From positions 372,001-436,000 of the forward strand of contig NZ_FNUB01000005.1 of assembly GCF_900105985.1 (NCBI RefSeq): DNA of 64,000 nt, written 5' to 3'. The notes beneath the pieces were generated by a model. The model was not told the DNA's origin, searched no databases, and saw only the letters and a list, made by a program, of their open reading frames with translations. The stretch comes from Tenacibaculum sp. MAR_2010_89 (GTDB lineage: Bacteria > Bacteroidota > Bacteroidia > Flavobacteriales > Flavobacteriaceae). Position numbers and translations under genes: made by a program. Below, piece after piece: positions 11,717 to 40,200 of this stretch; positions within the stretch are counted from its first letter, which is position 1, and every line of letters begins with the position of its first letter.

Positions 11717-11729
11717 GATAAATTAATAT

Positions 11730-13196: not shown

Positions 13197-13210
13197 AAAA
13201 GAATAGTTTA

Positions 13211-14399: not shown

Positions 14400-14404
14400 T
14401 TTTT

Positions 14405-15307: not shown

Positions 15308-15354
15308 TCTTTTTTATATCTTTTTTTAGCTCTTTTATTTTGTTGCATTATGTA

Positions 15355-15362
15355 TATCTTTG
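15355..15362 (+). promoter_or_regulatory. -7 element of the thioesterase gene
   Basis: TATCTTTG matches TAnnTTTG. It overlaps the upstream TTG codon (15360) that could be read as a start, which argues that translation starts at the ATG at 15378 instead. Confidence 0.5.
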
Positions 15363-15377
15363 CATCAAACTTATAAG

Positions 15378-15890: not shown

Positions 15891-15954
15891 AAGGCTTTAA
15901 AACGTTTTAAAAATGTAAATTTTAAAAACATACAAAAGAAATTAACTTTTTTGA

Positions 15955-16989
15955 TTAAATTTCTTCTATATCACCATTTTCAGATAAAATAATAGCAACT
16001 GATTTTGTTTTTTCGAATTGTGAAAATATAATAATCATGATTACTGTTATGGGTACACTTAACACCATACCTGTAATACCCCATATTTTACCCCAAACAG
16101 CAAGTGATATTATAGTTACTAGAGGACTTAAGTTTAATGATTTTCCAAAAAGTTTAGGTTCTATAACATTACCAACAATTACTTGAATACTTCCTACGGC
16201 AAATAAAACAATTAAAAAAGGTGTTAACTCTCCAAATTGTAATAAGGAAAATATGGCAGGAAAAACCGTACCAATTAAAGATCCTATAGTTGGTATATAG
16301 TTTAATAAGAATATTAAAAATGCCCAAAAGGGTGCGCTATCAACACCTACTAAAAGTAAAACAATATAACTTAGAATACCTGTAAGTAAGCTCACATATG
16401 TTTTTAAGCGTAAATAGTTTGAAATAGACTCTTCTATCTTACTTAACATGGTTTGCATATTATTATAATTTTCCTCGTCGTTAAGAAACATTTTATGCAA
16501 TTTCTTTTTTAAGCTAGATTCTTCTAAAAATATAAATAAGGCATAAATTATTATCATAAAAGTATCACCTAAAATACTACTGATACCATTTGCAATATCA
16601 CCTAAAATAGATCCATAATTAAATTTTCCAATAAAACCTTTTACAGATTTAATAATATCAACATGAAAATAACTATCAACTTTAGTAATGATAGCATCAA
16701 TATTAGGTTCGTATTTTGGATATGATGAGGTTAATGTGGTAATACTATTTGTTATTATTTCAGAAATAAAGCTAAAACTAAGTATGATTAAAGTGAAAAC
16801 AAATACATTAGATAGCCATTTAGGAATATATTTCTTAGTTAATGGAATACGATATATAGTTTTTCGTATTTCTCTTGTTAAAAACCAAAAAATTAAAGCA
16901 AAAATAAAAGGAATTAGAATTCCTTTTCCAATAACTAACGTTGCTAGAATAGCTATAGTAATAACGATAAAGTATGCTGCGTTTTTCAC
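15955..16989 (-). CDS. AI-2E-family (PerM-type) membrane transporter
   Basis: A 344-residue protein with about seven or eight membrane spans. It has the family pattern: paired N-terminal spans (AYFIVITIAILATLVIGKGILIP), a soluble amphipathic region (about 85-160), and the C-terminal spans with LIFLLNYIPTIGSLIGTVFPAIF and GNVIEPKLFGKSLNLSPLVT (the conserved NYIPxIG and EPKxxGxxLxLSPL motifs). Members have been reported as exporters or sodium/proton antiporters; the substrate is not inferable. It begins 22 bp downstream of the EnvC-like gene and may be the last gene of that operon. Confidence 0.9.
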   Translation of the reverse strand: MKNAAYFIVITIAILATLVIGKGILIPFIFALIFWFLTREIRKTIYRIPLTKKYIPKWLSNVFVFTLIILSFSFISEIITNSITTLTSSYPKYEPNIDAIITKVDSYFHVDIIKSVKGFIGKFNYGSILGDIANGISSILGDTFMIIIYALFIFLEESSLKKKLHKMFLNDEENYNNMQTMLSKIEESISNYLRLKTYVSLLTGILSYIVLLLVGVDSAPFWAFLIFLLNYIPTIGSLIGTVFPAIFSLLQFGELTPFLIVLFAVGSIQVIVGNVIEPKLFGKSLNLSPLVTIISLAVWGKIWGITGMVLSVPITVIMIIIFSQFEKTKSVAIILSENGDIEEI

Positions 16990-22893: not shown

Positions 22894-25608
22894 ATGAGAC
22901 AAAAAATTACTTTGTTATTAATGTGCGTATTTTTTGCTGGAGCTACCTTTGCCCAACAGAAAAGAACTTGCCATGCAATGGAAGACTTGGAAAATAGAAA
23001 AAGACAAGACCCTACATTACAAAAAAGAATGGATGAAATTGAAAGATTCACCCAAAGAAAAATCAAAGAGAACAACAATACCAAGAGAAAAATTTCTGGA
23101 TCAATAATTACACTACCTGTAGTAGTTCATATATTATATACAAATTCAACTAATAATATTAGTACGGCACAAATTCAATCACAATTAGATGTGTTGAATG
23201 CTGATTTTAGGAGAACAAATTCAGATAGAACTAATAAATGGTCACAAGCTGCTGATACTCAAATTGAATTCAAATTAGCAACTATTGACCCTAATGGTAA
23301 CCCTACAACAGGTATTACTAGAACTTCAGTTAGTAAATCTACTTGGGATCTTCAAAATCAGAGCACTAGTAATGATATGAAGAAATCATCTAGAGGTGGG
23401 GTTGACCCTTGGAATACTTCTGAATATCTTAACATGTGGATTGTTGATAAATTAACAAGAGGTTCAGGTACAATTTTAGGATTTGCTCAATTTCCAGGTG
23501 GAGCAGCTTCTACTGATGGAGTAGTAATGGCTGACCAGTATTTTGGTACAACTGGTACTGCGCAATCACCATTTGATGGAGGTAGAACAACAACTCATGA
23601 GGTTGGACATTTTTTAAACTTACGTCATATATGGGGTGATGGACCATGTGGTTCAGATGATTTTGTATCTGATACACCAGAATCTGATGCAGCTAATTAT
23701 GGTTGTAAAACTGGTCATACTTCTTGTGGTTCTGAAGATATGGTTCAAAATTATATGGACTATTCGGATGATACATGTATGAACCTATTTACATTAGGGC
23801 AAAAAAATAGAATGCGTGCTGTATTAGAAGCAGGTGGTTCTAGACGTAGTTTAGCGTTATCTGATAAGTTTGGAAGTGGAACTACTTGTAATGCAACAGT
23901 TCCAACAGGAGTTTCAACAAGTGGAGTTACTGCAACAGGAGCAACAGTAAACTGGACAGCAGTTTCTGGAGCAACGTATGATGTTAGATACCGTCAAGCT
24001 GGAACTAGCTCATGGACAACTAATGCATCATCAACTACATCAGCTACATTAAGTGGATTATCAGCTTCTACACAATACCAAGTTCAGGTTCGTAGTAAGT
24101 GTTCATCAGGAAACTCTAATTATAGTGCTTCAGTAAATTTTACAACTACAGCAGTACAAATAAACTATTGTGCATCTAGTGGAAACACATCATATGCAAC
24201 AGGAGTTACAAGAGTAGTATTCGGGTCTATTAATAAAGCAGATGGACCAGCTAAAAATGTTGGATATGAAAATTTTACTAATTTAAGTACTACAGTATCT
24301 CAATCTTCATCAGTAAACCTTACAGTATCAGTAAATACTGATGGTAATTATAGAGTTGATGCAATAGCATGGATAGATTGGAATCAAGATGGAGATTTTG
24401 CAGATAGTGGAGAAACATATGATTTAGGAAACATAAGTAATGTATCTAACGGAGCATTACCAACTAAAGCAGTAGCAGTTCCAGCAAATGCAAAAGTAGG
24501 AGCAACAAGAATGAGAGTTTCAGCAAGGTATAATGCGAATCCAACATCATGTCAAACAAACTTTGATGGAGAAGTAGAAGATTATACAGTAAATGTACAA
24601 GGAGCAGTAGCAGATACTCAAGCACCAAGTGCACCAAGTAGTTTAGCAGCAGCAAGTATAGTTCAAACAACATTAACATTAAACTGGACAGCTTCAACAG
24701 ATAATGTAGGAGTAACAGGATATGACGTTTTTAGAGGATCAACAAAAATAGGATCAACTACCACTGCAACAAGCTATAATGTAACAGGATTAACAGCAAA
24801 TACTGCATATTCATTTACAGTAAAAGCAAAAGATGCAGCAGGAAATGTATCATCATCAAGTAATACAGCAAGTGTTACTACTTTAGGAACTGTAGTTAAC
24901 TATTGTGCATCAAAAGGTAATAGAGTTACTTACGAGTGGATTGATTATGTATCATTTGGAGGAATGACTAATACAACTGGAGCAAACGGGGGATATGGAG
25001 ATTTCACATCTAAAGTGGCAACAGTAGCACAAGGAAGTACAAACCAATTAATAGTAAGTGCTGGGTTTAGAAGCACAGCTTATAATGAGTATTTTACAAT
25101 TTGGATTGATTATAATAAAAATGGAACTTTTGAGGCGAGTGAAAAAGTAGCTTCAGGAAACTCATCAAGTTCAACAAATAGATCTTCAAACATAACTATA
25201 CCGTCTTCAGCTAGTTTAGGACAAACAAGAATGCGTGTTTCTATGAAGTATAACGCAGCATCAACAGCATGTGAAACTTTCGCAGATGGTGAAGTAGAAG
25301 ATTATACGGTTAATATTACAGCTAATACAAGTAAAGGTACTAGTATAAGTAATATTGAAACTTTAAGAAGTGAAAGTGGTTTAGGCTTAATGGCGTATCC
25401 AAATCCAGCAACTAACTTCATTGAAGTTAATGTAGCATCAAAAAGTGATAACATTACATATAGAGTTATAAACACTATAGGAAGCGTTGTGAAATCAGGA
25501 AAAATGATGTCTAGAAGTTTAAATGTTTCAAACTTGAATTCAGGAATTTATATGTTAGAAGTTAATGATGGTCAAAAATCATTAAGAACTAAATTTATAA
25601 AAAAGTAA
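22894..25608 (+). CDS. M43-family secreted metalloprotease with FN3, GEVED and T9SS domains
   Basis: The 904-residue protein has a signal peptide (MRQKITLLLMCVFFAGATFAQ), a propeptide, and a cytophagalysin/PAPP-A-type M43 domain (about 70-330) with HEVGHFLNLRH (zinc His 235, 239, 245; Glu 236 catalytic) and a Met-turn in NYMDYSDD. Then come FN3 (from about 333), GEVED (about 424-570, ending GEVEDYTVN), FN3 (about 573-665), GEVED (about 669-805) and a T9SS type A sorting tail (LMAYPNPATNFI to FIKK, about 831-904). It is exported by T9SS and likely degrades proteins outside the cell. It is the first of five tandem secreted genes and a paralogue of the next. Confidence 0.95.
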   Translation: MRQKITLLLMCVFFAGATFAQQKRTCHAMEDLENRKRQDPTLQKRMDEIERFTQRKIKENNNTKRKISGSIITLPVVVHILYTNSTNNISTAQIQSQLDVLNADFRRTNSDRTNKWSQAADTQIEFKLATIDPNGNPTTGITRTSVSKSTWDLQNQSTSNDMKKSSRGGVDPWNTSEYLNMWIVDKLTRGSGTILGFAQFPGGAASTDGVVMADQYFGTTGTAQSPFDGGRTTTHEVGHFLNLRHIWGDGPCGSDDFVSDTPESDAANYGCKTGHTSCGSEDMVQNYMDYSDDTCMNLFTLGQKNRMRAVLEAGGSRRSLALSDKFGSGTTCNATVPTGVSTSGVTATGATVNWTAVSGATYDVRYRQAGTSSWTTNASSTTSATLSGLSASTQYQVQVRSKCSSGNSNYSASVNFTTTAVQINYCASSGNTSYATGVTRVVFGSINKADGPAKNVGYENFTNLSTTVSQSSSVNLTVSVNTDGNYRVDAIAWIDWNQDGDFADSGETYDLGNISNVSNGALPTKAVAVPANAKVGATRMRVSARYNANPTSCQTNFDGEVEDYTVNVQGAVADTQAPSAPSSLAAASIVQTTLTLNWTASTDNVGVTGYDVFRGSTKIGSTTTATSYNVTGLTANTAYSFTVKAKDAAGNVSSSSNTASVTTLGTVVNYCASKGNRVTYEWIDYVSFGGMTNTTGANGGYGDFTSKVATVAQGSTNQLIVSAGFRSTAYNEYFTIWIDYNKNGTFEASEKVASGNSSSSTNRSSNITIPSSASLGQTRMRVSMKYNAASTACETFADGEVEDYTVNITANTSKGTSISNIETLRSESGLGLMAYPNPATNFIEVNVASKSDNITYRVINTIGSVVKSGKMMSRSLNVSNLNSGIYMLEVNDGQKSLRTKFIKK

Positions 25609-25881: not shown

Positions 25882-28572
25882 ATGAAACGAAGAATTATTT
25901 TAGCACTTACGTGCTTGTTTTTTGTGGGTGCTAATTTCGCCCAAGAAAAAAGAAATTGCCATGCAATGGAAAATCTTGAACACCGTCAATCTCAAGATCC
26001 ATTATTAAAAGAAAGAATGCAAAAAATTGAAGCTTTTACTCAAAAAAGAGTAAAAGAAATGCAAAACACTAAAAACAAAATAGTAGGTAATGTTATTCAA
26101 TTACCAGTAGTAGTACATGTAATTTATAGTAATTCACAAGAAAACATTAGTGTTGCTCAAATCCAATCTCAAATTGATGTTCTTAATGAAGATTTTAGAA
26201 GAACAAATGCTGATAAAACAAATAAGTGGTCTCAAGCTGCTGATACAGAAATAGAGTTTTATTTAGCGAAGGTTGATCCAAATGGAAACCCTACAACAGG
26301 TATTACAAGAAAATCATCTACAAAAACATCATGGGGAACCAGTGATGCAATGAAAAAGTTATCTCAAGGAGGAGTAAATCCTTGGAATACTGCCGAGTAT
26401 TTAAATATGTGGGTATGTAATATTGGTGGAGGAATCCTTGGATATGCACAATTCCCAGGAGGAAGTGCTGCAACTGATGGAGTTGTAATGAGTCCACAAT
26501 ATTTTGGTAGTAAGGATAAAGGTACTGGTTTTTATTTAGCTGCTAAATTCGATAAAGGAAGAACTACCACACACGAAGTAGGACACTTCTTAAACTTACG
26601 CCATATTTGGGGTGATGGAGCATGTGGTACTGATGATTTCGTATCTGATACACCTGAATCTGATGCAGCTAATTATGGATGTGTAACTGGTCATACTTCT
26701 TGTGGTTCTGAAGATATGGTACAAAACTATATGGATTATTCTGATGATGCTTGTATGAATTTATATACAGCAGGTCAAAAGACTAGAATGAGAGCTGTTT
26801 TAGATGCTGGAGGAGTTAGACGTTCGTTAGCATTATCTGATAAAACTGGAGGATCTACCGCTTGTACTGCAACTGTACCAACTGGTGTTAGTACATCTAG
26901 TGTTACTTCTTCTGGAGCGTCAGTTTCTTGGACAGCAGTGTCTGGAGCTACCTATGATGTAAGATACCGTCAAACAGGAACAAGTTCTTGGACTACGAAT
27001 GCAGTAACTGGTACTTCAACTAGTTTAAGTGGGTTATCAGCTTCTACTCAATACGAAGTTCAGGTACGTAGTAAATGTACGTCTGGAAACTCTGCTTATA
27101 GTGCATCAGTAAACTTTACAACACCTGTAGTAACGATATCATATTGTTCATCAAAAGGAAATAGTGTATCAGATGAATATATTCAAAAAGTAGAATTAGG
27201 AAGTATAAGTAATACTTCAACAGGAGGAAATGGATATACAGATCACACTTCTATCTCTACCAATTTAGCAAAAGGAACTTCTCATAGTATTACGATTACG
27301 CCAAAATGGACAGGAACGGTTTACAATGAAGGTTATGGAGTTTTTATTGATTATAATAAAGATGGAGATTTTTCAGATTCAGGCGAAACAGTTTGGACAA
27401 AAGCAGCTTCAAAAGATACATCAGTAAGTGGTTCTTTTACAGTACCATCAGGAGCAAGTGAAGGAGCAACACGAATGAGAGTAATATTACGTTATAATGC
27501 AGTTCCAAGTGCATGTGGATCATACAACTATGGAGAGACAGAAGATTATACAGTAGTGATAGGATCAGCACAAGCAGATACTCAAGCACCAAGTGCACCA
27601 AGTAGTTTAGCTGCTTCAAGTGTTTCACAAACAAGTTTAAGTTTAGGATGGACAGCATCAACTGATAATGTAGGAGTAACAGGCTATGATGTATATAGAG
27701 GATCAACAAAAATAGGATCAACAACAACAGCAACAAGCTATAATGTAACAGGATTAACAGCAAATACAGCATATACTTTTTCAGTAAAAGCAAAAGATGC
27801 AGCCTCAAATGAATCAAGTTCAAGTAATGTTGTAAATGTAACTACTTTATCAAACACAGTATCTTATTGTGCTTCGAAAGGAAACAATATAAATTACGAG
27901 TGGATTGATTATGTATCATTTGGAGGAATGACTAATACTACAGGTGCAAATGGTGGATATGGTGACTTTACATCTAAAACTGCAACTGTAGCACAAGGAA
28001 GTACAAATCAACTAGTGGTAAGTGCAGGCTTTACAAGTACTGCCTATAATGAATATTACTCAATATGGATTGATTACAACCAGAATGGAACTTTTGAGTC
28101 AAGTGAAAAAGTAGCATCAGGAAACTCAACAAGTTCAGGGAATTTATCATACAACGTAAGTGTACCATCAGGAGCTAGTTTAGGAACAACAAGAATGCGT
28201 GTATCTATGAAATGGAACGCAGCTCAAACCGCTTGTGAAGCATTTTCTTATGGTGAAGTTGAAGATTATACGGTAAATATTACTTCAAATGTAAGTAGAG
28301 GTACAATTCTAGATAATGTTGCACCATTAACAAATGAAAATGTTTTGGATTTAATGGCTCATCCAAGTCCTGCAACAAATTTTGTACAAGTAAAATTAGC
28401 TTCAAGAGCTGAAAATTCAACTTACAGAATAACAAATACTATAGGAAGTGTTGTTTTATCTGGTGATTTGAACTCTTCTATTCTTAATGTTTCGAAATTA
28501 AATTCTGGGGTTTATATTCTAGAAGTTAATGATGGTCAAAAATCATTAACAACCAAATTTATTAAAAAGTAA
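25882..28572 (+). CDS. second M43-family secreted metalloprotease (paralogue)
   Basis: The 896-residue protein has the same plan as its upstream neighbour: signal peptide (MKRRIILALTCLFFVGANFAQ), M43 domain with HEVGHFLNLRH (His 231, 235, 241), FN3 (from about 330), GEVED (about 421-562), FN3 (about 565-655), GEVED (about 662-795) and T9SS tail (about 823-896, starting LMAHPSPATNF). The first GEVED is of a different subtype (GNSVSDEYIQKVEL) from that of the upstream gene and is almost identical in DNA to that of the M4 gene downstream. This points to module exchange between neighbours. It is likely secreted by T9SS. Activity is inferred from the intact zinc motif. Confidence 0.95.
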   Translation: MKRRIILALTCLFFVGANFAQEKRNCHAMENLEHRQSQDPLLKERMQKIEAFTQKRVKEMQNTKNKIVGNVIQLPVVVHVIYSNSQENISVAQIQSQIDVLNEDFRRTNADKTNKWSQAADTEIEFYLAKVDPNGNPTTGITRKSSTKTSWGTSDAMKKLSQGGVNPWNTAEYLNMWVCNIGGGILGYAQFPGGSAATDGVVMSPQYFGSKDKGTGFYLAAKFDKGRTTTHEVGHFLNLRHIWGDGACGTDDFVSDTPESDAANYGCVTGHTSCGSEDMVQNYMDYSDDACMNLYTAGQKTRMRAVLDAGGVRRSLALSDKTGGSTACTATVPTGVSTSSVTSSGASVSWTAVSGATYDVRYRQTGTSSWTTNAVTGTSTSLSGLSASTQYEVQVRSKCTSGNSAYSASVNFTTPVVTISYCSSKGNSVSDEYIQKVELGSISNTSTGGNGYTDHTSISTNLAKGTSHSITITPKWTGTVYNEGYGVFIDYNKDGDFSDSGETVWTKAASKDTSVSGSFTVPSGASEGATRMRVILRYNAVPSACGSYNYGETEDYTVVIGSAQADTQAPSAPSSLAASSVSQTSLSLGWTASTDNVGVTGYDVYRGSTKIGSTTTATSYNVTGLTANTAYTFSVKAKDAASNESSSSNVVNVTTLSNTVSYCASKGNNINYEWIDYVSFGGMTNTTGANGGYGDFTSKTATVAQGSTNQLVVSAGFTSTAYNEYYSIWIDYNQNGTFESSEKVASGNSTSSGNLSYNVSVPSGASLGTTRMRVSMKWNAAQTACEAFSYGEVEDYTVNITSNVSRGTILDNVAPLTNENVLDLMAHPSPATNFVQVKLASRAENSTYRITNTIGSVVLSGDLNSSILNVSKLNSGVYILEVNDGQKSLTTKFIKK
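27142..27849 (+). repeat. 708-bp near-identical coding block, copy 1 (GEVED plus FN3)
   Basis: Aligned line by line to 30681-31388, the block shows four differences, all synonymous third-position changes (Thr, Val, Leu, Val codons), about 99.4% identity. Flanking sequence is much less similar. Confidence 0.9.
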
Positions 28573-28587
28573 AAACTAACTACTAAG

Positions 28588-28613
28588 CCCTGAGGTTCTC
28601 TCAGGGTTTTTTT
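28588..28613 (+). terminator. terminator between the second M43 gene and the M4 gene
   Basis: CCCTGAG (28588-28594) pairs with CTCAGGG (28600-28606), followed by seven T. Only 27 bases separate its end from the next ATG, with no visible promoter, so the next gene may depend on readthrough. Confidence 0.85.
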
Positions 28614-28626
28614 ACAATTTTAAATT

Positions 28627-28636
28627 AAACCCATCT
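28627..28636 (+). promoter_or_regulatory. shared leader motif, variant AAACCCATCT
   Basis: One base differs from the copies at 22881, 25869 and 32342. It ends four bases before the ATG at 28641. Confidence 0.45.
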
Positions 28637-28640
28637 AAAA

Positions 28641-31600
28641 ATGAAAAAAAGTTACGTTAAAAACGCAATGTTTTTGGCTTTTTTGTTGCCTGGTGTGTTC
28701 ACTATGAATGCTCAAGATAACACTAAACCAAGACAAATTAAATTTAAAAATTCTTCAAAAATTGCTTTAACTAAAGCTCCAGTTTTAATTAAAGAAAAGC
28801 TTAGATTATCTTCTGAAGATAATTTAATAAAAGTACAATCTAGGCAAGATGAATTAGGTTTTACGCATAATAAATATCAACAAAAATTTAAAGGGATTAA
28901 GGTTGAGTTTGCTACCTACATGGCGCATGCAAAGAATGGGAACTTACAGAGTATGAATGGAGAACTTTATGATGTAAGTAGTGTGAATATAGTTCCAAAA
29001 TTATCTAAAGAAATAGCTTTTAATAGAGCTATAACTCATACAGGTGCTGAAAAATACCTTTGGGATTCTCCTAAAGCAGCAAAAGAAATGGATAATTATA
29101 AAAAGCCAGTGGGAGAATTGTTAATACTTCCAGGAGAAGTTATAGGAAAAGATAAAGCAAGATTGGCATATAAATTTGATATCTATGCAACACAGCCTTT
29201 AAGTAGAGGTCATCTATACATAGATGCTCATACTGGGGAAGTTTTGTTTTTTAATGCAATAATTAAGCATTTAGATGAACATGCACATTCTTCAAAGAAT
29301 TTAGGAACTGTAAATAATAGTATAAAAGATAAAATTATTGAAACTTTAGCTACTGGTAATGCAGCAACTAGGTATAGTGGAACACAGTCTATAACTACCA
29401 GGGTAATTGGTAGTAGTTATGCGTTAAGAGATAATACTAGAGGAAATGGAGTTAACACTTATAATAGTGGAGGTCAACCGAGTTATCCATCAACAAATTT
29501 TACAGATGCTGATAATAATTGGACAGCGGCAGAATTTGATAATGCAGCAAAAGATAATGCAGCTTTAGATGCGCACTGGGGAGCTGAGAAAACATATGAC
29601 TATTTTCAATCTAAACACAATAGAAATAGTTTTAACGGATCTGGAGCAGCAATAAATAGTTATGTACATTACGATAATGTAGCAGGAGGATTAGGTTATG
29701 ATAATGCTTTTTGGAATGGTTCGGTAATGACTTATGGTGATGGATCATCAAATGGAAGTGAAGGAAATGGTAATTTTGATGCTTTAACATCTATTGATGT
29801 TGCAGCTCATGAAATAGGTCACGCTGTTTGTTCAAATACTGCAAACTTAGCTTATCAAAGAGAATCTGGAGGATTAAATGAAGGGTTTTCTGATATTTGG
29901 GGAGCTGCAGTTGAGCATTTTGCAAAAGGAAATGGTAATGATAGTGCACCAAGCGCTTCAGTTTGGTTAATAGGTGATGAAATAGATAGAAGAACTGGCG
30001 CAGTAGCTTTACGTTCTATGAGTAACCCTAATGAAAGAAATCAACCTGATACTTATGGAGGAACTTATTGGAAAGAACCAAATTGTGGAACACCAACACA
30101 ATCAAATGATTATTGTGGTGTACACACAAACTCAGGAGTATTAAATTATTGGTTTTATTTATTAACTGTAGGTGGATCTGGAACAAATGACATTAATAAT
30201 TCATTTAATGTTACAGGTATTGGAATGACTAAAGCAGCTAAAATTTCTTATCGTTTAGAAGTAAATTATTTATCTGCTAATTCTAAATTTGAGGATGCTA
30301 GAAATGGTGCCATATCGGCAGCTACAGATTTATACGGAGCTAATAGTGATGAGGTAAAATCAGTAACTAATGCTTGGCATGCTGTTGGTGTAGGAGATGC
30401 ATTTGTTGAATCTTGTGCATTAGCAGCACCTACTAATTTTGCAGGTTCTAGTATTAATGATAATGGATTTACTTTAACATGGACAGCAGTTACAGGAGCA
30501 AGCTCTTATACAGTAACAGTTAATGGAACAGATAGTACAGTTAATGGAACATCTAAGGTAATTACTGGCTTAACTGCAGGAACAGCTTATGTATGTGTAG
30601 TGAAAGCAAAATGTTCATCAGGAGGAGATGGAGCAGCATCTAATGTTAGTGTAACAACTACTGGAACAGCTCCAGTTAATTATTGTTCATCAAAAGGAAA
30701 TAGTGTATCAGATGAATATATTCAAAAAGTAGAATTAGGAAGTATAAGTAATACTTCAACAGGAGGAAATGGATATACAGATCACACTTCTATCTCTACC
30801 AATTTAGCAAAAGGAACTTCTCATAGTATTACGATTACGCCAAAATGGACAGGAACGGTTTACAATGAAGGTTATGGAGTTTTTATTGATTATAATAAAG
30901 ATGGAGATTTTTCAGATTCAGGCGAAACAGTTTGGACAAAAGCAGCTTCAAAAGATACATCAGTAAGTGGTTCTTTTACAGTACCATCAGGAGCAAGTGA
31001 AGGAGCAACTCGAATGAGAGTTATATTGCGTTATAATGCAGTTCCAAGTGCATGTGGATCATACAACTATGGAGAGACAGAAGATTATACAGTAGTGATA
31101 GGATCAGCACAAGCAGATACTCAAGCACCAAGTGCACCAAGTAGTTTAGCTGCTTCAAGTGTTTCACAAACAAGTTTAAGTTTAGGATGGACAGCATCAA
31201 CTGATAATGTAGGAGTAACAGGCTATGATGTTTATAGAGGATCAACAAAAATAGGATCAACAACAACAGCAACAAGCTATAATGTAACAGGATTAACAGC
31301 AAATACAGCATATACTTTTTCAGTAAAAGCAAAAGATGCAGCCTCAAATGAATCAAGTTCAAGTAATGTTGTAAATGTAACTACTTTAGGAACAGTAGTA
31401 AGCTACTGTACTTCTAAAGGGAATAGAGTTACTTATGAATGGATAGATTATGTATCATTTGGAGGAATGACTAACAGTACTGGAAAAAATGGTGGATATG
31501 GAGATTTCACATCTAAAACGGCAACGGTAGCTCAGGGAAGTACAAATCAACTAGTGGTAAGTGCAGGTTTTAGAAGCACAGCTTATAATGAGTTTTTTAC

Positions 31601-32123
31601 AATATGGATTGATTATAACCAGAATGGAACTTTTGAATCAAGTGAAAAAGTAGCATCAGGAAATTCAACAAGTTCAGGAAATTTATCATACAACGTAAAT
31701 GTACCATCAGGAGCTAGCTTAGGAACAACAAGAATGCGTGTATCAATGAAATACAACGGAGCATCTACAGCATGTGAAACTTTTGCTGATGGGGAAGTTG
31801 AAGATTATACTGTAAATATTACTACAGCTAGTGCTTCAATTATTAATACTTTAACATCAACAATTAAAGCAGATGCTCTTACAAATGAAAGAGTTTTAGA
31901 TTTAATGACATACCCAAATCCAGCTATTAATACTGTTCAAGTTAAGTTTGCTTCAAAAGCAGAAAACATTACTTATAGAATTGTAAATACTATAGGAAGT
32001 GTAGTAAAATCTGGAAGAATAACATCAACAAATTTAGATGTTTCAAGTTTAAATTCTGGAATTTATATGTTAGAAATAAATGATGGTCAAAAACAATTAA
32101 AAACTAAATTGGTAAAAAAGTAA
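28641..32123 (+). CDS. M4-family (thermolysin-like) secreted metalloprotease with FN3, GEVED and T9SS domains
   Basis: The 1160-residue protein has a signal peptide (MKKSYVKNAMFLAFLLPGVFTMNAQ), FTP/PepSY propeptide (about 45-210, with ELGFTHNKYQQKFKGIKVEF), and a peptidase M4 core (about 230-590) with HEIGH at 390-394 and the downstream GGLNEGFSDIWG segment that gives the third zinc ligand. His HTNSGVLNYWFYLL is the C-terminal-domain active-site region. FN3 follows (from about 596), then GEVED (about 681-822), FN3 (about 825-915), GEVED (about 921-1055) and T9SS tail (about 1087-1160). It is an exported endopeptidase activated by loss of the propeptide. Its start lies only 27 bp past a terminator. 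Confidence 0.95.
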   Translation: MKKSYVKNAMFLAFLLPGVFTMNAQDNTKPRQIKFKNSSKIALTKAPVLIKEKLRLSSEDNLIKVQSRQDELGFTHNKYQQKFKGIKVEFATYMAHAKNGNLQSMNGELYDVSSVNIVPKLSKEIAFNRAITHTGAEKYLWDSPKAAKEMDNYKKPVGELLILPGEVIGKDKARLAYKFDIYATQPLSRGHLYIDAHTGEVLFFNAIIKHLDEHAHSSKNLGTVNNSIKDKIIETLATGNAATRYSGTQSITTRVIGSSYALRDNTRGNGVNTYNSGGQPSYPSTNFTDADNNWTAAEFDNAAKDNAALDAHWGAEKTYDYFQSKHNRNSFNGSGAAINSYVHYDNVAGGLGYDNAFWNGSVMTYGDGSSNGSEGNGNFDALTSIDVAAHEIGHAVCSNTANLAYQRESGGLNEGFSDIWGAAVEHFAKGNGNDSAPSASVWLIGDEIDRRTGAVALRSMSNPNERNQPDTYGGTYWKEPNCGTPTQSNDYCGVHTNSGVLNYWFYLLTVGGSGTNDINNSFNVTGIGMTKAAKISYRLEVNYLSANSKFEDARNGAISAATDLYGANSDEVKSVTNAWHAVGVGDAFVESCALAAPTNFAGSSINDNGFTLTWTAVTGASSYTVTVNGTDSTVNGTSKVITGLTAGTAYVCVVKAKCSSGGDGAASNVSVTTTGTAPVNYCSSKGNSVSDEYIQKVELGSISNTSTGGNGYTDHTSISTNLAKGTSHSITITPKWTGTVYNEGYGVFIDYNKDGDFSDSGETVWTKAASKDTSVSGSFTVPSGASEGATRMRVILRYNAVPSACGSYNYGETEDYTVVIGSAQADTQAPSAPSSLAASSVSQTSLSLGWTASTDNVGVTGYDVYRGSTKIGSTTTATSYNVTGLTANTAYTFSVKAKDAASNESSSSNVVNVTTLGTVVSYCTSKGNRVTYEWIDYVSFGGMTNSTGKNGGYGDFTSKTATVAQGSTNQLVVSAGFRSTAYNEFFTIWIDYNQNGTFESSEKVASGNSTSSGNLSYNVNVPSGASLGTTRMRVSMKYNGASTACETFADGEVEDYTVNITTASASIINTLTSTIKADALTNERVLDLMTYPNPAINTVQVKFASKAENITYRIVNTIGSVVKSGRITSTNLDVSSLNSGIYMLEINDGQKQLKTKLVKK
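30681..31388 (+). repeat. 708-bp near-identical coding block, copy 2 (GEVED plus FN3)
   Basis: Partner of 27142-27849, 3539 bp downstream in direct orientation, with four synonymous differences. Recombination between the copies would delete the C-terminal part of the second M43 gene and the catalytic part of the M4 gene. Confidence 0.9.
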
Positions 32124-32355: not shown

Positions 32356-35300
32356 ATGAAACACAAGTACTTTAAAAGTCTTGTAGTTACAGGTGCGTTA
32401 ATTGGATTAAGTTTCCAAGCACAACTACAAGCTCAAAACAAAGGTGAGGCTGAAAAAATTCGTAGTAAATACGATTTAACCAAACTAAATGTTATGAAGC
32501 AAAACTTCCAAGAAAATGCTTCAAATGAAAAACAACAAGCTTTACGATTAGCTAAAAAGAACGGCTGGAAAACTCAATTCACAACCAAAGATGGAAGTAT
32601 GGTTGAACTTCAAAGAGTTGTAGACGGAAAGCCAATTTACTACACAACTTTTAACGTTGATGCAGCAAAATCAACGAGAACGAATCACTTACATTCAGGG
32701 GGAACATTAGGATTGAATGTAATGGGTCAAGGTATGACAGCCCATGTTTGGGATGGTGGTTTAGCAAGAACTACCCACCAAGAATATGATGGAGCAGGAG
32801 GAAATAACCGCTTCTCTATTGGTGATGGTACTACAACAAAAAACTTTCACGCCGCTCACGTTACAGGAACTATTATAGCATCTGGAGTACAAGCTAATGC
32901 TAAAGGAATGGCTCCACATGCTAAAGCTGTTGGTTATGATTGGAATAGTGATAAAGCTGAAGCAACAACTGCAGCAGCTAACGGTATGTTAATCTCTAAT
33001 CACTCATACGGTTATAGAGTTAGAAACCCGAATACAGGGCAAGTATTATTACCTCAACATTATTTTGGAGGGTATATAACAGAATCTCGTGCTTGGGATG
33101 AGATAATGTTTAATGCTCCAAATTATTTAATGGTTGTAGCAGCAGGTAACGATGGTAACGATAATACAGCAAATAACAATCCTACTGGAGGTTCTGGTTT
33201 TGATAAATTAACAGGACATTCTACATCTAAGAATAACTTAGTAGTTGCAAATGCACAAGATGCTAATGTTGATGCTAGTGGAAATTTAGTTTCTGTATCT
33301 ATCAATAGTTCAAGTAGTGAAGGGCCAACTGATGATTTTAGAATAAAACCAGATATTACAGGTAATGGTACTGGAGTATATTCTACTTATGAAAGTAGTG
33401 ATACTGCATATAATTCTATTACTGGTACATCAATGGCTTCTCCTAATGTAACAGGTTCATTACTGCTTTTACAACAGCATAATAATAATACACATAGTTC
33501 TTATATGAGAGCTGCAACACTTAAAGGTTTAGCTTTACATACTGCTGATGATGCAGGAGCTTCTGGACCTGATGCAGTTTTTGGTTGGGGATTGTTAAAT
33601 ACTAAAAAGGCAGCTCAAGTAATTACTCAGAAAGGAAATCAATCAAAAATAGAAGAGTTAACATTAACTTCTGGTCAAACATATACAATAACTGTTGATT
33701 CTGATGGAACAAACCCGTTATTAGCATCAATTTCATGGACAGATAGACCAGGTACAGCTAATACAACTGTAAACTCTACTACACCAGTTTTAGTAAATGA
33801 TTTAGATTTAAGAGTTACTAAAGGTGGAACAACTAATTTACCTTATGAATTAACAGGTGCAACTACAAATGCAAAAAGAGATAATAATGTTGATCCTTTT
33901 GAAAGAGTTGATGTTTCTGGAGCTTCAGGAACCTATACTATAACAGTAACTCATAAAGGTTCTTTAACAGGAGGTAGTCAAAATTATTCTTTAATAGTAA
34001 CAGGAATTACAGGTACTCCAGTAGTTTGTAATGCAACAGTACCAACAGGAGTTTCAACAAGTGGAGTTTCTGCAACAGGAGCAACAGTAAACTGGACAGC
34101 AGTTTCTGGAGCAACGTATGATGTTAGATACCGTCAAGTTGGAACTAGCTCATGGACAACAAGCGCAGTATCTGGAACAACAAAAGCCTTAAGTGGATTA
34201 TCAGCTTCTACACAATATGAAGCTCAAGTTCGTAGTAAGTGTTCATCAGGAAACTCTAATTATAGTGCTTCAGTAAACTTTACAACTACAGCAGTACAAA
34301 TAAACTATTGTGCATCTAGTGGAAACACATCATATGCAACAGGAGTTACAAGAGTAGTATTTGGATCTATTGATAAAGCAGATGGACCAGCTAAAAATGT
34401 TGGATATGAAAACTTTACTAATTTAAGTACTACAGTATCTCAATCTTCATCAGTAAACCTTACAGTATCAGTAAATACTGATGGTAATTATAGAGTTGAC
34501 GCAATAGCATGGATTGACTGGAATCAAGATGGAGATTTTGCTGATAGCGGAGAAACATACGATTTAGGAAACATAAGTAATGTATCTAACGGAGCATTAC
34601 CAACTAAAGCAGTAGCAGTTCCAGCAAATGCAAAAGTAGGAGCAACAAGAATGAGAGTTTCAGCAAGGTATAATGCAAACCCAACTTCATGTCAAACAAA
34701 CTTTGATGGAGAAGTAGAAGATTATACAGTAAATGTTCAGGGAGCAGTAGCAGATACTCAAGCACCAAGTGCACCAAGTAGTTTAGTAGCAGCAAGTATA
34801 GCTCAAACAACATTAACATTAAACTGGACAGCTTCAACAGATAATGTAGGGGTAACAGGATATGACGTTTTTAGAGGATCAACAAAAATAGGATCAACTA
34901 CCACTGCAACAAGTTATAACGTAACAGGATTAACAGCAAATACTGCATATTCATTTACAGTAAAAGCAAAAGATGCAGCAGGAAATGTATCATCATCAAG
35001 TAATACTGCAAGTGTTACTACTTTAGGAACTGTAGTGTCGTATTGTGATTCAAAAGGTACACGAGTTACTTACGAGTGGATTGATTATGTATCATTTGGA
35101 GGAATGACTAATACAACTGGAGCAAACGGAGGATATGGAGATTTCACATCTAAAGTTGCTACTGTAACACAAGGAAGTACTAATCAATTAGTAGTAAGTG
35201 CTGGATTTAGAAGTACTGCATACAATGAGTATTTTGTTATTTGGATAGATTACAATGGAGATGGAGACTTTACTGATAGTGGAGAACAGGTAACTTCAGG

Positions 35301-35766
35301 TAATTCAACAAGCTCAGGAAACAGAACAGCAAATATTACAATACCAGGAAATGCAAAATTAGGACAAACAAGAATGCGTGTTTCTATGAAATATAATTCA
35401 GCACCAACATCTTGTGAAGCTAATATTGGAGATGGAGAAGTAGAAGATTATACAGTAAACATTACTGCTTCTAGTGCTAGTTTAACTACATTCTCAGATG
35501 TTACTGTAACAGGAGAGCCTTTCTCTAATCAAAATGTATTAGATTTAATGGCATATCCTAATCCAGCTACAAACTTTGTTCAAGTTAAGTTTGCATCAAA
35601 AGCAGAAAATATGACTTATAGAATTGTAAATACTATAGGAAGTGTTGTAAAATCTGGGCAAATGAAATCTAGAAACTTAGATGTTTCAAACTTGAATTCT
35701 GGAATATATATGTTAGAAGTTAATGATGGTCAAAAATCATTAAAGACTAAGATTGTAAAAAAATAA
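32356..35766 (+). CDS. S8-family (subtilisin-like) secreted serine protease with FN3, GEVED and T9SS domains
   Basis: The 1136-residue protein has a signal peptide (about 1-27), a prodomain, and an S8 catalytic domain (about 115-420): Asp 133 in HVWDGG, His 168 in HAAHVTG, and Ser 359 in GTSMASPN. A jelly-roll pre-peptidase-type domain follows (about 430-552: YTITVDSDGTNPLLASISWTD). Then FN3 (about 559-645), GEVED (about 650-797), FN3 (about 800-892), GEVED (about 896-1035) and T9SS tail (about 1064-1136). The FN3-GEVED-FN3 part is about 97% identical in DNA to that of the first M43 gene. It is an exported protease with all three catalytic residues. Confidence 0.95.
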   Translation: MKHKYFKSLVVTGALIGLSFQAQLQAQNKGEAEKIRSKYDLTKLNVMKQNFQENASNEKQQALRLAKKNGWKTQFTTKDGSMVELQRVVDGKPIYYTTFNVDAAKSTRTNHLHSGGTLGLNVMGQGMTAHVWDGGLARTTHQEYDGAGGNNRFSIGDGTTTKNFHAAHVTGTIIASGVQANAKGMAPHAKAVGYDWNSDKAEATTAAANGMLISNHSYGYRVRNPNTGQVLLPQHYFGGYITESRAWDEIMFNAPNYLMVVAAGNDGNDNTANNNPTGGSGFDKLTGHSTSKNNLVVANAQDANVDASGNLVSVSINSSSSEGPTDDFRIKPDITGNGTGVYSTYESSDTAYNSITGTSMASPNVTGSLLLLQQHNNNTHSSYMRAATLKGLALHTADDAGASGPDAVFGWGLLNTKKAAQVITQKGNQSKIEELTLTSGQTYTITVDSDGTNPLLASISWTDRPGTANTTVNSTTPVLVNDLDLRVTKGGTTNLPYELTGATTNAKRDNNVDPFERVDVSGASGTYTITVTHKGSLTGGSQNYSLIVTGITGTPVVCNATVPTGVSTSGVSATGATVNWTAVSGATYDVRYRQVGTSSWTTSAVSGTTKALSGLSASTQYEAQVRSKCSSGNSNYSASVNFTTTAVQINYCASSGNTSYATGVTRVVFGSIDKADGPAKNVGYENFTNLSTTVSQSSSVNLTVSVNTDGNYRVDAIAWIDWNQDGDFADSGETYDLGNISNVSNGALPTKAVAVPANAKVGATRMRVSARYNANPTSCQTNFDGEVEDYTVNVQGAVADTQAPSAPSSLVAASIAQTTLTLNWTASTDNVGVTGYDVFRGSTKIGSTTTATSYNVTGLTANTAYSFTVKAKDAAGNVSSSSNTASVTTLGTVVSYCDSKGTRVTYEWIDYVSFGGMTNTTGANGGYGDFTSKVATVTQGSTNQLVVSAGFRSTAYNEYFVIWIDYNGDGDFTDSGEQVTSGNSTSSGNRTANITIPGNAKLGQTRMRVSMKYNSAPTSCEANIGDGEVEDYTVNITASSASLTTFSDVTVTGEPFSNQNVLDLMAYPNPATNFVQVKFASKAENMTYRIVNTIGSVVKSGQMKSRNLDVSNLNSGIYMLEVNDGQKSLKTKIVKK
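34030..35035 (+). repeat. about 1-kb coding repeat of the first M43 gene
   Basis: Aligns without gaps, at a constant offset of 10,140 bp, to 23890-24895. Between 24121 and 24895 I count roughly two dozen substitutions, about 97% identity. It covers FN3, GEVED and the second FN3. Confidence 0.85.
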
Positions 35767-35841: not shown

Positions 35842-38800
35842 ATGAACAATAAATTTAAGTTTTTGATTGGCGGCTTATCAGTTGCAGCAATTTCAATTAT
35901 TGGATCTGATTATTTAAAGAAGCAAGACGTTTCGGCTACAATAGCTGAACAACGAGAGGTTCATAAAACCTTTTTAGACGAAAGCCCTTTAAATGAATCT
36001 TTAAAATGGGGGAAAAAAGAAAGAAAATTAAAAGGATTACCTCCTAATAGGTATTTTGATCAAATGCAAATGCTTACTATGAATCCAGCTACTGGACAAA
36101 TGGAAGATGGTACGCTAGCTAAACTAAGAGAAGATTTATTAAAAAGTAGATCAGCTAAAGGAAATAATACACAACAAAGAGGCCCTGGAGATGCAGGTAA
36201 TTCTTGGGTAGAAAGAGGTCCTAATAATGTAGGAGGACGTACAAGAGTAATTTTGTTTGATCCAAATGATGCAACAAATAATACAGTGTATGCTGGTGGT
36301 GTAAGTGGAGGTTTATGGAAAAACACGAATATTAGTAATGCAAATACTCAATGGACAAGGGTTCAGAATGTTCCAGGTAACTTATCGGTAACTTCTATTA
36401 CTGTTGATCCTAGAAACTCTAATACATGGTATGTTGGTACAGGAGAACAGTATACTGCAGGTGATGTTGTAGGTAACGGAGTTTATGTTACTACTAATGG
36501 GGGTACTACATGGAATGCAATTAATATACCTGCTTCAGGTACAGCAATTATTAATCATAATGCAAGTAATATTTTCCTTTCAGGAATACATTATGTAAAT
36601 GATATTTTAGCATGGGATAATGGAGCATCAACAGAATTATTCGTAGCAGTAGGTGCTCACGTTTATGGTGATGCATCTAGTCCAAAAAATTGGCTAGGAT
36701 TACAATCAGCTGGTATCTATCGTTCTACAAATAATGGAACTACTTGGAATCGAATAGAATCTGCTAACATGAGATATACATTTAGCGGTAATGATTATTA
36801 TTATGTACCAAATGATTTAGAAGTAAGTGCAAATAATACGATTTGGATGGGAACTATTAAGTCTGTTTTAGATGCTAATAGTGGAGGTAGAGTATACAGT
36901 TCAACAAATGGGTCTACTTGGACAGAAGCTGCAGCTTCTCCTTTAACAAATTCAAATAGAGTTGAGTTAGAAACTTCTGCTACGAATGCTAATAAAATTT
37001 ATGCATTAACTCAAGGAACAACTTCTGCTGCTCCGGTTCATATTTATAAGACAACAAATGGTTTTACTTCAGTAACTTCAACGTCATTACCAAATGATGC
37101 AGATACTGGGATATCTTCAACAGATTTTACAAGAGGACAAGCATTTTACGATTTAGTAATTGAAGCTGACCCTACAAATGATAATATTGTTTATGTTGGA
37201 GGTATTGATTTATTTAAAACTACTAATGGAGGAACATCATGGTCTCAATTATCTCATTGGTATGGAGGTTTTGGTCATCAAAATGTACATGCTGATCAAC
37301 ACTCAATAGCTTTCGGTAATAATGATTCATCAAAGATATTATTTGGAAATGATGGAGGAGTTTATTATTCTGGAAATTCAGGAGGGGTTATAGGAAAAAG
37401 AAATAAAGGATACAATGTTACTCAATTTGTAAAAGCAGCAATTGGACCAGATGGAGCCGGAGATGTTGATGGTATTTTTAGTGCTGGTGCACAAGACAAT
37501 GGAACACAGGCTTTTAGAAATGCTGTTGCTGGAGTTAATAGCTCGACTGATTTAAGTGATGGTGATGGTTTTTATACGTTTGTTGATAAAGACGGTCAAT
37601 ATATGATAGCTACTTATGTAAGAAATGTTATTTACAGATTTAGTTTACCTTGGAATGGTTTAGGTAGACAACAAGGAGGGGCAACTACTCTTTTTAATGA
37701 TTCTCAAAATACTGGTGATTTTGTAAATCCAATGGGATACGATAGTCAGGCAAATAGATTATTATCTAATAAATCTACATCTTCAAGCAAGGCTATTTTA
37801 AGTATTAATGTAGCAGCAAATAGTAATGGAACAATAACAAATGCACTATTAGATGCTAGTCCTACTGCTTTTCAACCTTCTCCTTTTGCTAATAATTCTT
37901 GGTATGTTGGATTGGCTAATGGTAAATTATTAAGATTAACTAATGTTACTAACAGTAGTGCAACTTGGACAAATATTGCTACTCCTTTTGTAGGGTCTGT
38001 TTCATCTGTTCGATTTGGAGCTACTGCAAATGATATTTTCGTTACAATTCATAATTATGGTGTAACTAGTGTTTGGGCTACTTCTAATGGAGGTACGAAC
38101 TGGGTTAGTAAAGAAGGAAATTTACCAAATATTCCTGTAAGAGATTTATTACAAAATCCATTAGATAGAACTGAAGCTATTTTGGCAACTCAATTAGGAG
38201 TTTGGTCAACGTCAAACTTTAATGATGCTAATCCAAACTGGACACAAGCATACAATGGAATGAGTGATGTTAGTGTAACATCGTTTGATTATTGGGATGT
38301 TAGTGGAGATAATGCAACCAACAAAGTAATTGCTTCTACCTACGGTAGAGGAGTGTTTACAGGATCATTTACGAGTAATGCAGTAGCAGATACACAAGCA
38401 CCAACAGCACCAGCTAGTTTAGCAACTAGTTCAATTGCAGCAACTAGTTTAACTTTAAATTGGACAGCTTCAACTGATAATGTAGGAGTAACTGGATACG
38501 ATGTGTTTAGAGGGGCTACTAAAATAGGTTCGTCTACAACAACTTCTTATAATGTAACAGGATTAACAGCAAGTACAGCATATACTTTTACAGTAAAAGC
38601 AAAAGATGCAGCTGGAAATATCTCAACGGCAAGTAATACAGCAAGTGCTACTACTACAGCTATTACAATGTCTTGTTCATCAACAATTACATCATTTCCT
38701 TATAGTGAAGGATTCGAATCTAATGATGGATGGGTACAAGTAACTGGTGATGATGGAAACTGGGTAAGAAAAAGTGGTAGTACACCATCTAACGGAACTG

Positions 38801-40200
38801 GACCAAGTTCAGCAACTCAAGGTTCTTTTTATATGTTTTTAGAAGCTTCAACGAATAATAGCCCAGGAAAAATTGGAGCAAATGCAACAGCTATTTTAGA
38901 AAGTGCTTGTTTTGATTTGTCTGATAAATCTTCAGCTTCTTTTAGTTTCAAAAACCATATGTATGGGAATAATATAGGGTCTTTAAAAGTTCAAGGATCT
39001 TCGAATGGAACAACTTGGACTGACTTATGGTCTGATTCAGGAAGTAAAGGAAACCAATGGAATTCTATTAAAGTTAACTTAAGTGCTTATTTAGGTGCTA
39101 ATGTTAAGTTAAGAATTGTAGGAACAACTGGTAGTGGTTGGTCTAGTGATATCGCTGTTGATGATTTATCTGTAACAGCAGTTAATGATGGGCCAGATAC
39201 ACAGGCACCTACAGCTCCTAGTAGTTTAACTTCTTCAAGTGTTACTCAAACTTCATTAACATTAGGTTGGACTGCTTCAACTGATGATGTAGGGGTTACT
39301 GGATATGATGTTTTTAGAGGTACTACTAAGTTAGCAACTGTAACAACTACTTCTTATAATGTAACAGGATTAACGGCAAATACTGCATATACATTCTCAG
39401 TTAAGGCAAAAGATGCTGCTGGAAACGTTTCTTCTGCAAGTAATGTAGTAAATGTTACAACATTGAGTAATGTAGTAAATTATTGTGCTTCAAAAGGAAA
39501 TAGAGTTACTTATGAATGGATTGATTATGTTTCTTTCGGAGGAATGACAAATACAACTGCTGCAAATGGTGGGTATGGTGATTTTACTTCTAAGGTAGCT
39601 ACAGTTACTCAAGGAACTACTAATCAAATAGTAGTAAGTGCAGGATTTAATAGTTCTTCTTATACTGAGTACTTTACAGTATGGATTGATTATAATAGAA
39701 ATGGAACTTTTGAAAGTAGTGAGCAAACCTCTTTAGGTTCTTCTAGTTCAGCTTCAAATAGATCTGCAAATATATCAATACCTGCAGGAGCAACTTTAGG
39801 TCAAACAAGAATGCGTGTTTCTATGAAGTATAACGCAGCGTCTACAGCTTGTGAAACATTTGCTGATGGTGAAGTAGAAGATTATACGGTTAATATCGTT
39901 AGTTCATCTTCTTCTTTAGCTGGAACTACTTCTTCAAATGATTTATCTGCTGAACCATTAGATAGAGATGGTTTACCAAGTTTAATTGCATATCCTAATC
40001 CTGCAATTAACAGCATTATTGTAAAGTTTGGTAACAATGAAAATGTAAATTACAGAATCACTAATACAATTGGTCAAGTTGTGTTAAAAGGTGAAACTAT
40101 GAATAACACAGTAAATATCTCTAGTTTAAAAAGTGGAATTTACTTATTAGAAGCAAATGATGGTCAAAAATCATTGACTACTAAATTAGTTAAAAGATAA
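35842..40200 (+). CDS. giant secreted beta-propeller (BNR/sortilin-like) protein with FN3, MAM-like, GEVED and T9SS domains
   Basis: The 1452-residue protein has an N-terminal signal segment (KFKFLIGGLSVAAISIIG). The section from about 115 to 840 holds BNR/sortilin-type propeller repeats (WVERGPNNVGGRTRVILFDP, YAGGVSGGLWKN, TTNGGTTWN, STNNGTTWNR, KTTNGGTSWSQL, NDGGVYYSGN), similar to VPS10-like secreted proteins. FN3 follows (about 850-940), a MAM/jelly-roll-like domain (about 945-1115, with PYSEGFESNDGWVQVTGDD and GNQWNSIKVNLSAYLG), FN3 (about 1120-1210), GEVED (about 1214-1345) and T9SS tail (about 1382-1452). No protease motif is present; it may bind glycans or proteins. It is the last of the five-gene set. 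Confidence 0.93.
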   Translation: MNNKFKFLIGGLSVAAISIIGSDYLKKQDVSATIAEQREVHKTFLDESPLNESLKWGKKERKLKGLPPNRYFDQMQMLTMNPATGQMEDGTLAKLREDLLKSRSAKGNNTQQRGPGDAGNSWVERGPNNVGGRTRVILFDPNDATNNTVYAGGVSGGLWKNTNISNANTQWTRVQNVPGNLSVTSITVDPRNSNTWYVGTGEQYTAGDVVGNGVYVTTNGGTTWNAINIPASGTAIINHNASNIFLSGIHYVNDILAWDNGASTELFVAVGAHVYGDASSPKNWLGLQSAGIYRSTNNGTTWNRIESANMRYTFSGNDYYYVPNDLEVSANNTIWMGTIKSVLDANSGGRVYSSTNGSTWTEAAASPLTNSNRVELETSATNANKIYALTQGTTSAAPVHIYKTTNGFTSVTSTSLPNDADTGISSTDFTRGQAFYDLVIEADPTNDNIVYVGGIDLFKTTNGGTSWSQLSHWYGGFGHQNVHADQHSIAFGNNDSSKILFGNDGGVYYSGNSGGVIGKRNKGYNVTQFVKAAIGPDGAGDVDGIFSAGAQDNGTQAFRNAVAGVNSSTDLSDGDGFYTFVDKDGQYMIATYVRNVIYRFSLPWNGLGRQQGGATTLFNDSQNTGDFVNPMGYDSQANRLLSNKSTSSSKAILSINVAANSNGTITNALLDASPTAFQPSPFANNSWYVGLANGKLLRLTNVTNSSATWTNIATPFVGSVSSVRFGATANDIFVTIHNYGVTSVWATSNGGTNWVSKEGNLPNIPVRDLLQNPLDRTEAILATQLGVWSTSNFNDANPNWTQAYNGMSDVSVTSFDYWDVSGDNATNKVIASTYGRGVFTGSFTSNAVADTQAPTAPASLATSSIAATSLTLNWTASTDNVGVTGYDVFRGATKIGSSTTTSYNVTGLTASTAYTFTVKAKDAAGNISTASNTASATTTAITMSCSSTITSFPYSEGFESNDGWVQVTGDDGNWVRKSGSTPSNGTGPSSATQGSFYMFLEASTNNSPGKIGANATAILESACFDLSDKSSASFSFKNHMYGNNIGSLKVQGSSNGTTWTDLWSDSGSKGNQWNSIKVNLSAYLGANVKLRIVGTTGSGWSSDIAVDDLSVTAVNDGPDTQAPTAPSSLTSSSVTQTSLTLGWTASTDDVGVTGYDVFRGTTKLATVTTTSYNVTGLTANTAYTFSVKAKDAAGNVSSASNVVNVTTLSNVVNYCASKGNRVTYEWIDYVSFGGMTNTTAANGGYGDFTSKVATVTQGTTNQIVVSAGFNSSSYTEYFTVWIDYNRNGTFESSEQTSLGSSSSASNRSANISIPAGATLGQTRMRVSMKYNAASTACETFADGEVEDYTVNIVSSSSSLAGTTSSNDLSAEPLDRDGLPSLIAYPNPAINSIIVKFGNNENVNYRITNTIGQVVLKGETMNNTVNISSLKSGIYLLEANDGQKSLTTKLVKR

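Follow-up and report, generated by a model that had tools for sequence, protein, structure and literature searches.

The five-gene array and its common stalk

The window analysed here is a stretch of 64,000 nucleotides of Tenacibaculum sp. MAR_2010_89, and all positions are those of the window unless another locus is named. It carries an array of five genes, designated O1 to O5, which lie on the plus strand together with every feature described within them, and whose products all end, according to Pfam, in FN3, GEVED, and Por_Secre_tail sorting domains. Using Pfam and our own profiles, we resolved O1 (22894..25608) into an M43 head, an FN3 domain (FN3-1), a GEVED domain of type A (GEVED1), another FN3 domain (FN3-2), a second GEVED domain (GEVED2), and a T9SS tail. 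The layout of O2 (25882..28572) is the same, with an M43 head and GEVED type B. O3 (28641..32123) joins an M4 (thermolysin-type) head to a stalk with GEVED type B, and O4 (32356..35766) joins an S8 (subtilase) head to a stalk with GEVED type A. In O5 (35842..40200), a head that matches no Pfam family at E 0.001 is followed by FN3, MAM, FN3, GEVED2, and the T9SS tail; we presumptively label this head BNR, from its repeated NGG.SW-like motifs. Pfam places the heads of O1 and O2 in M43, that of O3 in M4, and that of O4 in S8. When we call the M43 and M4 heads different, we mean that they belong to distinct Pfam families without a BLAST match to one another, which does not imply a separate origin.

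M43 and M4 are both families of zinc proteases of the HExxH kind. HEVGH can be read directly in the sequence of O2 and HEIGH in that of O3, and we take both to be zinc motifs. Among named genomes, T. aiptasiae and Tenacibaculum sp. 2-514A hold the closest relatives of the O3 head, with 82% identity. The GEVED domain (PF20009) scores 150.7 bits in O2 and 149.2 bits in O3, against a curated cut-off of 24.4, and the genome as a whole contains 25 GEVED copies. Por_Secre_tail (PF18962) lies above its cut-off at the C-terminus in all five genes, and the T9SS protein SprA is encoded in the same genome. Judged from these sequence features, the array proteins are predicted to be secreted T9SS cargo, and the stalk might act as a spacer, an anchor, or a binder for the head. 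Among the Pfam families listed at E 0.001, neither C25 catalytic domains nor CAD/DUF2436 adhesin domains occur in the five genes.

Other peptidase genes lie nearby. A second M4 protease gene (44865-48041), 4.7 kb downstream of the array, encodes FN3 domains and a T9SS tail with no GEVED match, and its M4 head is 35.5% identical to that of O3. Two more peptidase genes, M13 and S9 (prolyl oligopeptidase), are encoded on the minus strand at 54521-58898.

The two GEVED types are best seen by comparing O1 and O2, which both have M43 heads and align over their full length. Their identity is 46-59% in the GEVED1 windows, compared with 87% immediately upstream and 84-88% in two windows of FN3-2; the GEVED1 domains are of two types, A (O1) and B (O2).

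Near-identical tracts within the array

A block of 708 bp is present in both O2 and O3. The first copy (27142..27849) covers GEVED1 and FN3-2 of O2 (residues 421-656), and the second (30681..31388) covers the same domains of O3 (residues 681-916). As the first-pass annotation had stated, the copies differ at four of 708 bases (27471/31010, 27483/31022, 27489/31028, and 27693/31232) and are 99.4% identical, and our substitution count agrees with its reading that all changes are silent: four synonymous, no nonsynonymous, and a dS of 0.024. Just downstream, dS for the same pair rises to 0.54 in GEVED2 (27865..28287 in O2 and 31404..31826 in O3) and to 0.74 in the tail, and dS between orthologous heads is 1.08 (O3 and 2-514A) or 0.95 (O2 and T. 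discolor). The annotation had also described strongly different flanks, with sharp edges set in unrelated genes. This is true of the left flank but not of the right, where GEVED2 is still 86.1% and the tail 68.8% identical; with looser scoring (+1/-4) the tract even extends into GEVED2, giving 1,072 bp at 94.8%. Within each of the 81-bp windows at the four block edges, searched one by one, there are no direct or inverted repeats of at least 10 bp. When the O2 stalk is modelled by structure prediction, with unreliable domain packing (mean pLDDT 77.1, pTM 0.40), the block starts (model residue 107) in a linker between strands 96-99 and 119-125 and ends (342) in a linker between strands 337-340 and 352-355. 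A fold search with this predicted stalk returned mostly FN3-bearing chains, with whole-chain TMq of 0.13-0.20 among the 50 rows listed, which suggests likeness at the level of single domains only.

Could selection or convergence alone keep the two segments alike? That all four differences are silent is in keeping with strong purifying selection, but the silent sites themselves are nearly identical, and copies under the same head elsewhere show GEVED1 differences of about 21% or more; we therefore give this reading almost no credence. GEVED1 is 99.3% alike in O2 and O3, and the best gene with the same head in another genome reaches 79.2% (for O2) or 78.0% (for O3), so the comparison of paralogues with orthologues that the annotation had proposed came out on the side of the paralogues. 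Under any head, the best of 87 outside copies is in the S8 gene of genome G002 (81.5% for O2, 80.8% for O3). All four genes of the window with a GEVED domain in this position are closer to a paralogue than to an orthologue. This comparison covered genes on the majority strand of each stretch and GEVED domains of at least 139 residues.

The aligned stalks of O1 to O4 contain 513 polymorphic sites. O2 and O3 agree at 158 polymorphic sites in a row, and the longest run in 10,000 shuffles was 42; when only silent codons are used, the test is weaker, and 67 of 10,000 shuffles reach the observed run. In a tree of 29 rows, the AU test rejects both a topology in which O3 joins its M4 orthologues but not O2 (p 0.0004) and one in which O2 joins its M43b orthologues but not O3 (p 8e-30). 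In a larger tree of 65 rows (77 rows minus 12 long-branch or outgroup rows), O3 with its orthologues is again rejected (p 1e-48). The annotation had left the choice between recent gene conversion and a fresh duplication, and the first of these is favoured. Conversion agrees with the dS values, the shuffles, and the AU tests; a fresh duplication of the whole gene does not fit, because the heads belong to different Pfam families and the M4 head has no BLAST match to the M43 genes. Recent gene conversion at O2/O3 is thus well supported.

It is also conceivable that both genes received the same module independently, either by horizontal transfer or with a third copy of the same genome as the source. 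The nearest outside copy does sit under a third kind of head, namely S8 in G002, and the tree of slot GEVED domains described below needs many changes of head. However, with 40 of 121 candidates in the window genome scored, the block has no other match above 80% identity (O1 and O4), the figures outside the array being 74% over at least 225 bp and 77% for shorter pieces, and none of the 87 outside copies exceeds 81.5%. We regard independent receipt as very improbable. On balance, we have considerable confidence that a recent gene conversion left the 708-bp block, probably by copying the stalk segment of O2 over its counterpart in O3.

The direction just given is favoured rather than certain. 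Three of the four O2/O3 differences fall within 19 bp (P 0.007). At these three sites O2 has the base of the three listed M43b orthologues in every case, and O3 has the base of an M4 orthologue at two; such a cluster, carrying the bases of each gene's own orthologues, is what is expected of a patch that escaped copying. In the 29-row tree neither direction is rejected (p 0.11 for the M4 side and p 0.23 for the M43b side). In the 65-row tree, the test rejects a clade of O2 and O3 with M4 from 2-514A and T. aiptasiae (p 0.0016) but not one with M43b from G163 and G185 (p 0.27). The opposite direction, from M4 to M43, was our first reading from protein identities; nucleotide identity and the larger tree favour M43 to M4, and the protein tree still leans the other way, setting the O2/O3 pair with the M4 orthologues (84/87). 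The nearest outside copy of the pair, the G002 gene mentioned above (98/86 in the type-B GEVED tree), is neither M4 nor M43. From these observations, copying probably ran from O2 to O3 and left a small unconverted patch. In T. adriaticum, an M43 gene has by eye an M4-like FN3-1, and the transfer there looks to have run from M4 to M43; this case carries little weight, given a run of N in the sequence.

A second tract links O1 (23886..25112) and O4 (34026..35252), which are 94.3% identical over 1,227 bp comprising FN3-1, GEVED1, FN3-2, and part of GEVED2, with edges at the start of FN3-1 and inside GEVED2. Their longest run of agreement in the four aligned stalks is 51 sites, against a shuffle maximum of 33; with silent codons only, 1,950 of 10,000 shuffles reach the observed run, which is not significant. 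The AU test rejects O4 with its S8 orthologues without O1 (p 0.00034) and does not reject O1 with G26_M43a without O4 (p 0.066).

Recurrence, tract edges, and the interchangeable slot

Similar tracts recur in other genomes. Among 11 arrays, G027 has an M43/M4 tract of 1,145 bp at 98.0%. Among 40 stretches from 37 genomes of the genus, G095 has an M43/M4 tract of 1,161 bp at 99.4%, G074 an M43/O5-type tract of 1,142 bp at 96.4%, G120 an S8/M4 tract of 1,521 bp at 97.0% that extends past the stop codons, and T. adriaticum a tract of 914 bp at 97.0%. Repeats in G124 and G097 were not counted as cases, one end lying outside a listed frame; the G076 and G067 stretches were dropped from the profile, edge, slot, and tree analyses as duplicates of T. 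caenipelagi and T. adriaticum, respectively, and the G069 stretch and the second G087 stretch contained no array gene. In a separate survey of 78 loci, consisting of M4-like genes of named genomes with flanks of up to 10 kb, two loci (Tenacibaculum sp. 2-514A and T. adriaticum) have a repeat of at least 250 bp and at least 88% between two long genes, and the remaining 15 of 17 repeat rows lie inside one gene or outside long genes. The window genome and G095 were searched whole and part of the candidates scored; in both, the only near-identical copies of the block are the two in the array, and the next matches in G095 are 68-73% identical (among 40 of 67 candidates).

At least one gene is nearer to a paralogue with a different head than to its orthologue in nine of the 25 testable genomes, that is, those with two or more heads to compare. 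GEVED1 is at least 95% identical between different heads in six of them (the window genome, G027, G074, G095, G120, and T. adriaticum), and the three weaker cases are 2-514A, G192, and an Aquimarina sp., the last of which has no close orthologues in the set. In the type-B GEVED tree, each same-genome pair or trio of at least 95% forms its own starred clade, except in G120, whose five copies (87/95) fall beside G097. We did not find concerted evolution across most lineages of the genus: 16 of the 25 testable genomes show none, and in the T. discolor group (larymnensis, discolor, caenipelagi, G026, G096, G109, and G158) every gene compared is nearest to its orthologue. Conversion therefore appears to be episodic.

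These recurrent cases bear on whether the near-identity could be an artefact of assembly, with reads from two repeats mixed. Similar repeats of P. gingivalis are described as having defeated automated assembly in the accessible text of one study (PMC5266723), and the M4 copy of T. adriaticum has a run of N beside an apparent repeat. On the other hand, the window contig is longer than 2.98 Mb in an assembly of five contigs, the two copies keep four differences, and G027, G074, and G095, each on one contig, show the same pattern, which makes an artefact quite unlikely. The run of N in the T. adriaticum M4 gene (L114 12002-12297) lies between two perfect repeats of 101 bp, and the assembly may be unsafe at that place.

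A more serious competitor is unequal crossing-over, in which misaligned sister chromosomes would recombine at the stalks, so that the stretch from stalk to head is duplicated and later partly deleted. The gene content of the arrays varies, and duplication followed by deletion could leave the same pattern. In G120 (L229, oriented coordinates), two O5-type genes (8265-12512 and 13050-16592), the second without a slot GEVED, share 1,546 bp at 98.8% in what looks like a fresh tandem duplication, and the same genome has slot-less M43 and S8 genes. For O2 and O3, however, which keep the different GEVED2 domains and tails noted above, two close exchanges would be needed, and a single conversion is simpler; we therefore hold unequal crossing-over to be improbable, although it is the likeliest of the alternatives.

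The edges of the tracts, mapped by codon in sixteen pairs, indicate how far copying can reach. Recent tracts between M43 and M4, M4 and S8, M4 and O5, S8 and O5 (G120), and O5 and M43 start at most three codons from the start of the slot, the position before FN3-2 and between the two FN3 domains. T. adriaticum is the exception, with a start 20 codons earlier; between O5 and S8 in G074, the tract begins 11 codons earlier. Where M43 and S8 are the partners, the tracts of the window and G120 begin no more than about four codons from the start of FN3-1, and that of G074, whose M43 gene has no FN3-1, starts at the slot. The right ends of recent tracts vary and fall in GEVED2 (+45 to +140), in the tail, or at the gene end. 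The tract starts inside a domain in 2-514A, T. aiptasiae, and G192, whose pairs are the oldest three (85-90%). This pattern argues for copying limited by homology rather than for a module with fixed ends. The first-pass annotation, which took the edges to mean that GEVED-FN3 moves as a unit, was thus only partly right: homology ceases at the left edge but continues across the right one, and the ends of tracts are placed differently in other genomes. A fixed mobile module for O2/O3 was accordingly set aside, given the variable right ends and the lack of edge repeats.

According to our own profiles, built from array sequences, the slot holds GEVED-A, GEVED-B, MAM, CUB, or nothing. By Pfam, too, the M43 gene of T. 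aiptasiae has CUB, and four sister genes (G102, G186, G163, and G185) have MAM or GEVED. On the head trees, the filling of the slot must change five times among 24 O5-type genes and eight times among 24 S8 genes, "none" being counted as a filling. Between the S8 genes of G102 and G186, identity is 38-51% in the slot (MAM versus GEVED-A) and 72-95% elsewhere; between the O5-type genes of G163 and G185 it is 30-45% in the slot (MAM versus GEVED-B) and 76-95% elsewhere, with 55% in the alignment segment spanning the left slot junction. On the tree of 77 type-B GEVED copies, the type of head must change 22 times, where three changes would be the minimum, a count that long branches make rough. In O5 itself the slot contains MAM (38677..39186), where the nearest relatives carry GEVED type B, and no second match to this domain was seen in the window genome among 40 of 85 candidates. 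No recent local donors for the MAM swaps were found, the best same-genome MAM matches being just 81.0% (G102) and 80.6% (G163). CUB replaces both FN3-1 and GEVED1 in the M43 genes of T. aiptasiae (L149 4113-6479; by Pfam) and 2-514A (by likeness). The swapping of single domains in the slot is a process separate from the copying of tracts.

Meaning of the shared stalks and comparison with known systems

How might such a pattern arise? The genes keep heads of different families and have a common stalk, a string of beads made up of FN3, GEVED1, FN3, GEVED2, and the sorting tail; we suppose that this common DNA serves as the substrate for recombination. Gene conversion, understood as homologous recombination between two copies within one genome, would halt on the left where homology ends, at the junction of head and stalk or of FN3-1 and slot, and on the right at variable points within homologous DNA. 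Round after round, the stalks of an array would be made more alike, and the heads would go on diverging. Homologous recombination as the enzymatic path, like the direction of copying, is what we infer from the tracts. The enzymes would then trade stalk parts and their heads stay apart, as far as can be read from the genomes compared. More broadly, and only tentatively, the arrays might be viewed as a combinatorial exchange system for secreted enzymes, in which neighbouring genes resupply a fixed slot behind heads that include M43, M4, and S8, through copying guided by homology and, now and then, swaps of whole domains, so that the parts for targeting and spacing are reassorted faster than the heads evolve; we would sooner doubt than assert this wider view.

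Most inferences of domain shuffling span long times; here the copying step looks fresh, as judged by the low dS of the block. With visible edges and replicates across the genus, one can ask what sets the ends of a tract and how often neighbours exchange parts. The pattern also opens the question of whether the stalk is kept alike for doing the same job across different enzyme chemistries; its sameness may be either useful or tolerated. A practical caution follows for phylogeny: trees built from the C-terminal half of such proteins can cluster by genome and not by enzyme.

Both gene conversion and the sharing of adhesin modules borne by T9SS proteins are already known, as the accessible texts of PMC6053082 and PMC5266723 make clear. 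Among the open-access papers listed, we found neither prior work on this Tenacibaculum array nor a case replicated across a genus that spans three protease families and includes an interchangeable slot. Concerted evolution in prokaryotes, in which paralogues are more alike than orthologues, has been ascribed to recurrent gene conversion (PMC6053082, from the part available). The set described there comprises 26 genes, 22 of them for members of stable complexes, whereas the array genes have different heads and are homogenised only outside their catalytic part. GEVED (PF20009) has been defined as a stalk domain of fibrillar adhesins, and such adhesins are argued to arise by domain shuffling (PMC10952558). 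That study of CshA NR2/GEVED collects adhesins by homology to CshA-NR2 and works at the level of domains, and the accessible portion of it contains no near-identical tracts in neighbouring genes. Cytophagalysin, an M43 peptidase of the pappalysin family, has a string of Ig-like domains and a C-terminal domain like the T9SS export signal, and an orthologue in T. maritimum is mentioned (PMC11674741). Its M43-type head resembles those of O1 and O2, a likeness drawn from its description, and neither conversion nor stalk sharing is described in the available text.

The nearest precedent is the sharing of adhesin modules among the gingipains and HagA. In P. gingivalis, hagA, rgpA, and kgp contain identical repeats within and between genes, adhesin variants are unlinked to catalytic variants, and gene conversion is discussed (PMC5266723, from the accessible text, as are the comparisons that follow). 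Like the array products, whose export is predicted, RgpA and Kgp are proteases exported by T9SS in which modular adhesin domains follow the catalytic one. In that system, the heads that share modules all belong to clan C25 or are absent (HagA), whereas in the array they are M43, M4, S8, and one unassigned head. Moreover, unlike the gingipain/HagA study, the Tenacibaculum case concerns one array whose pattern has been compared across a genus.
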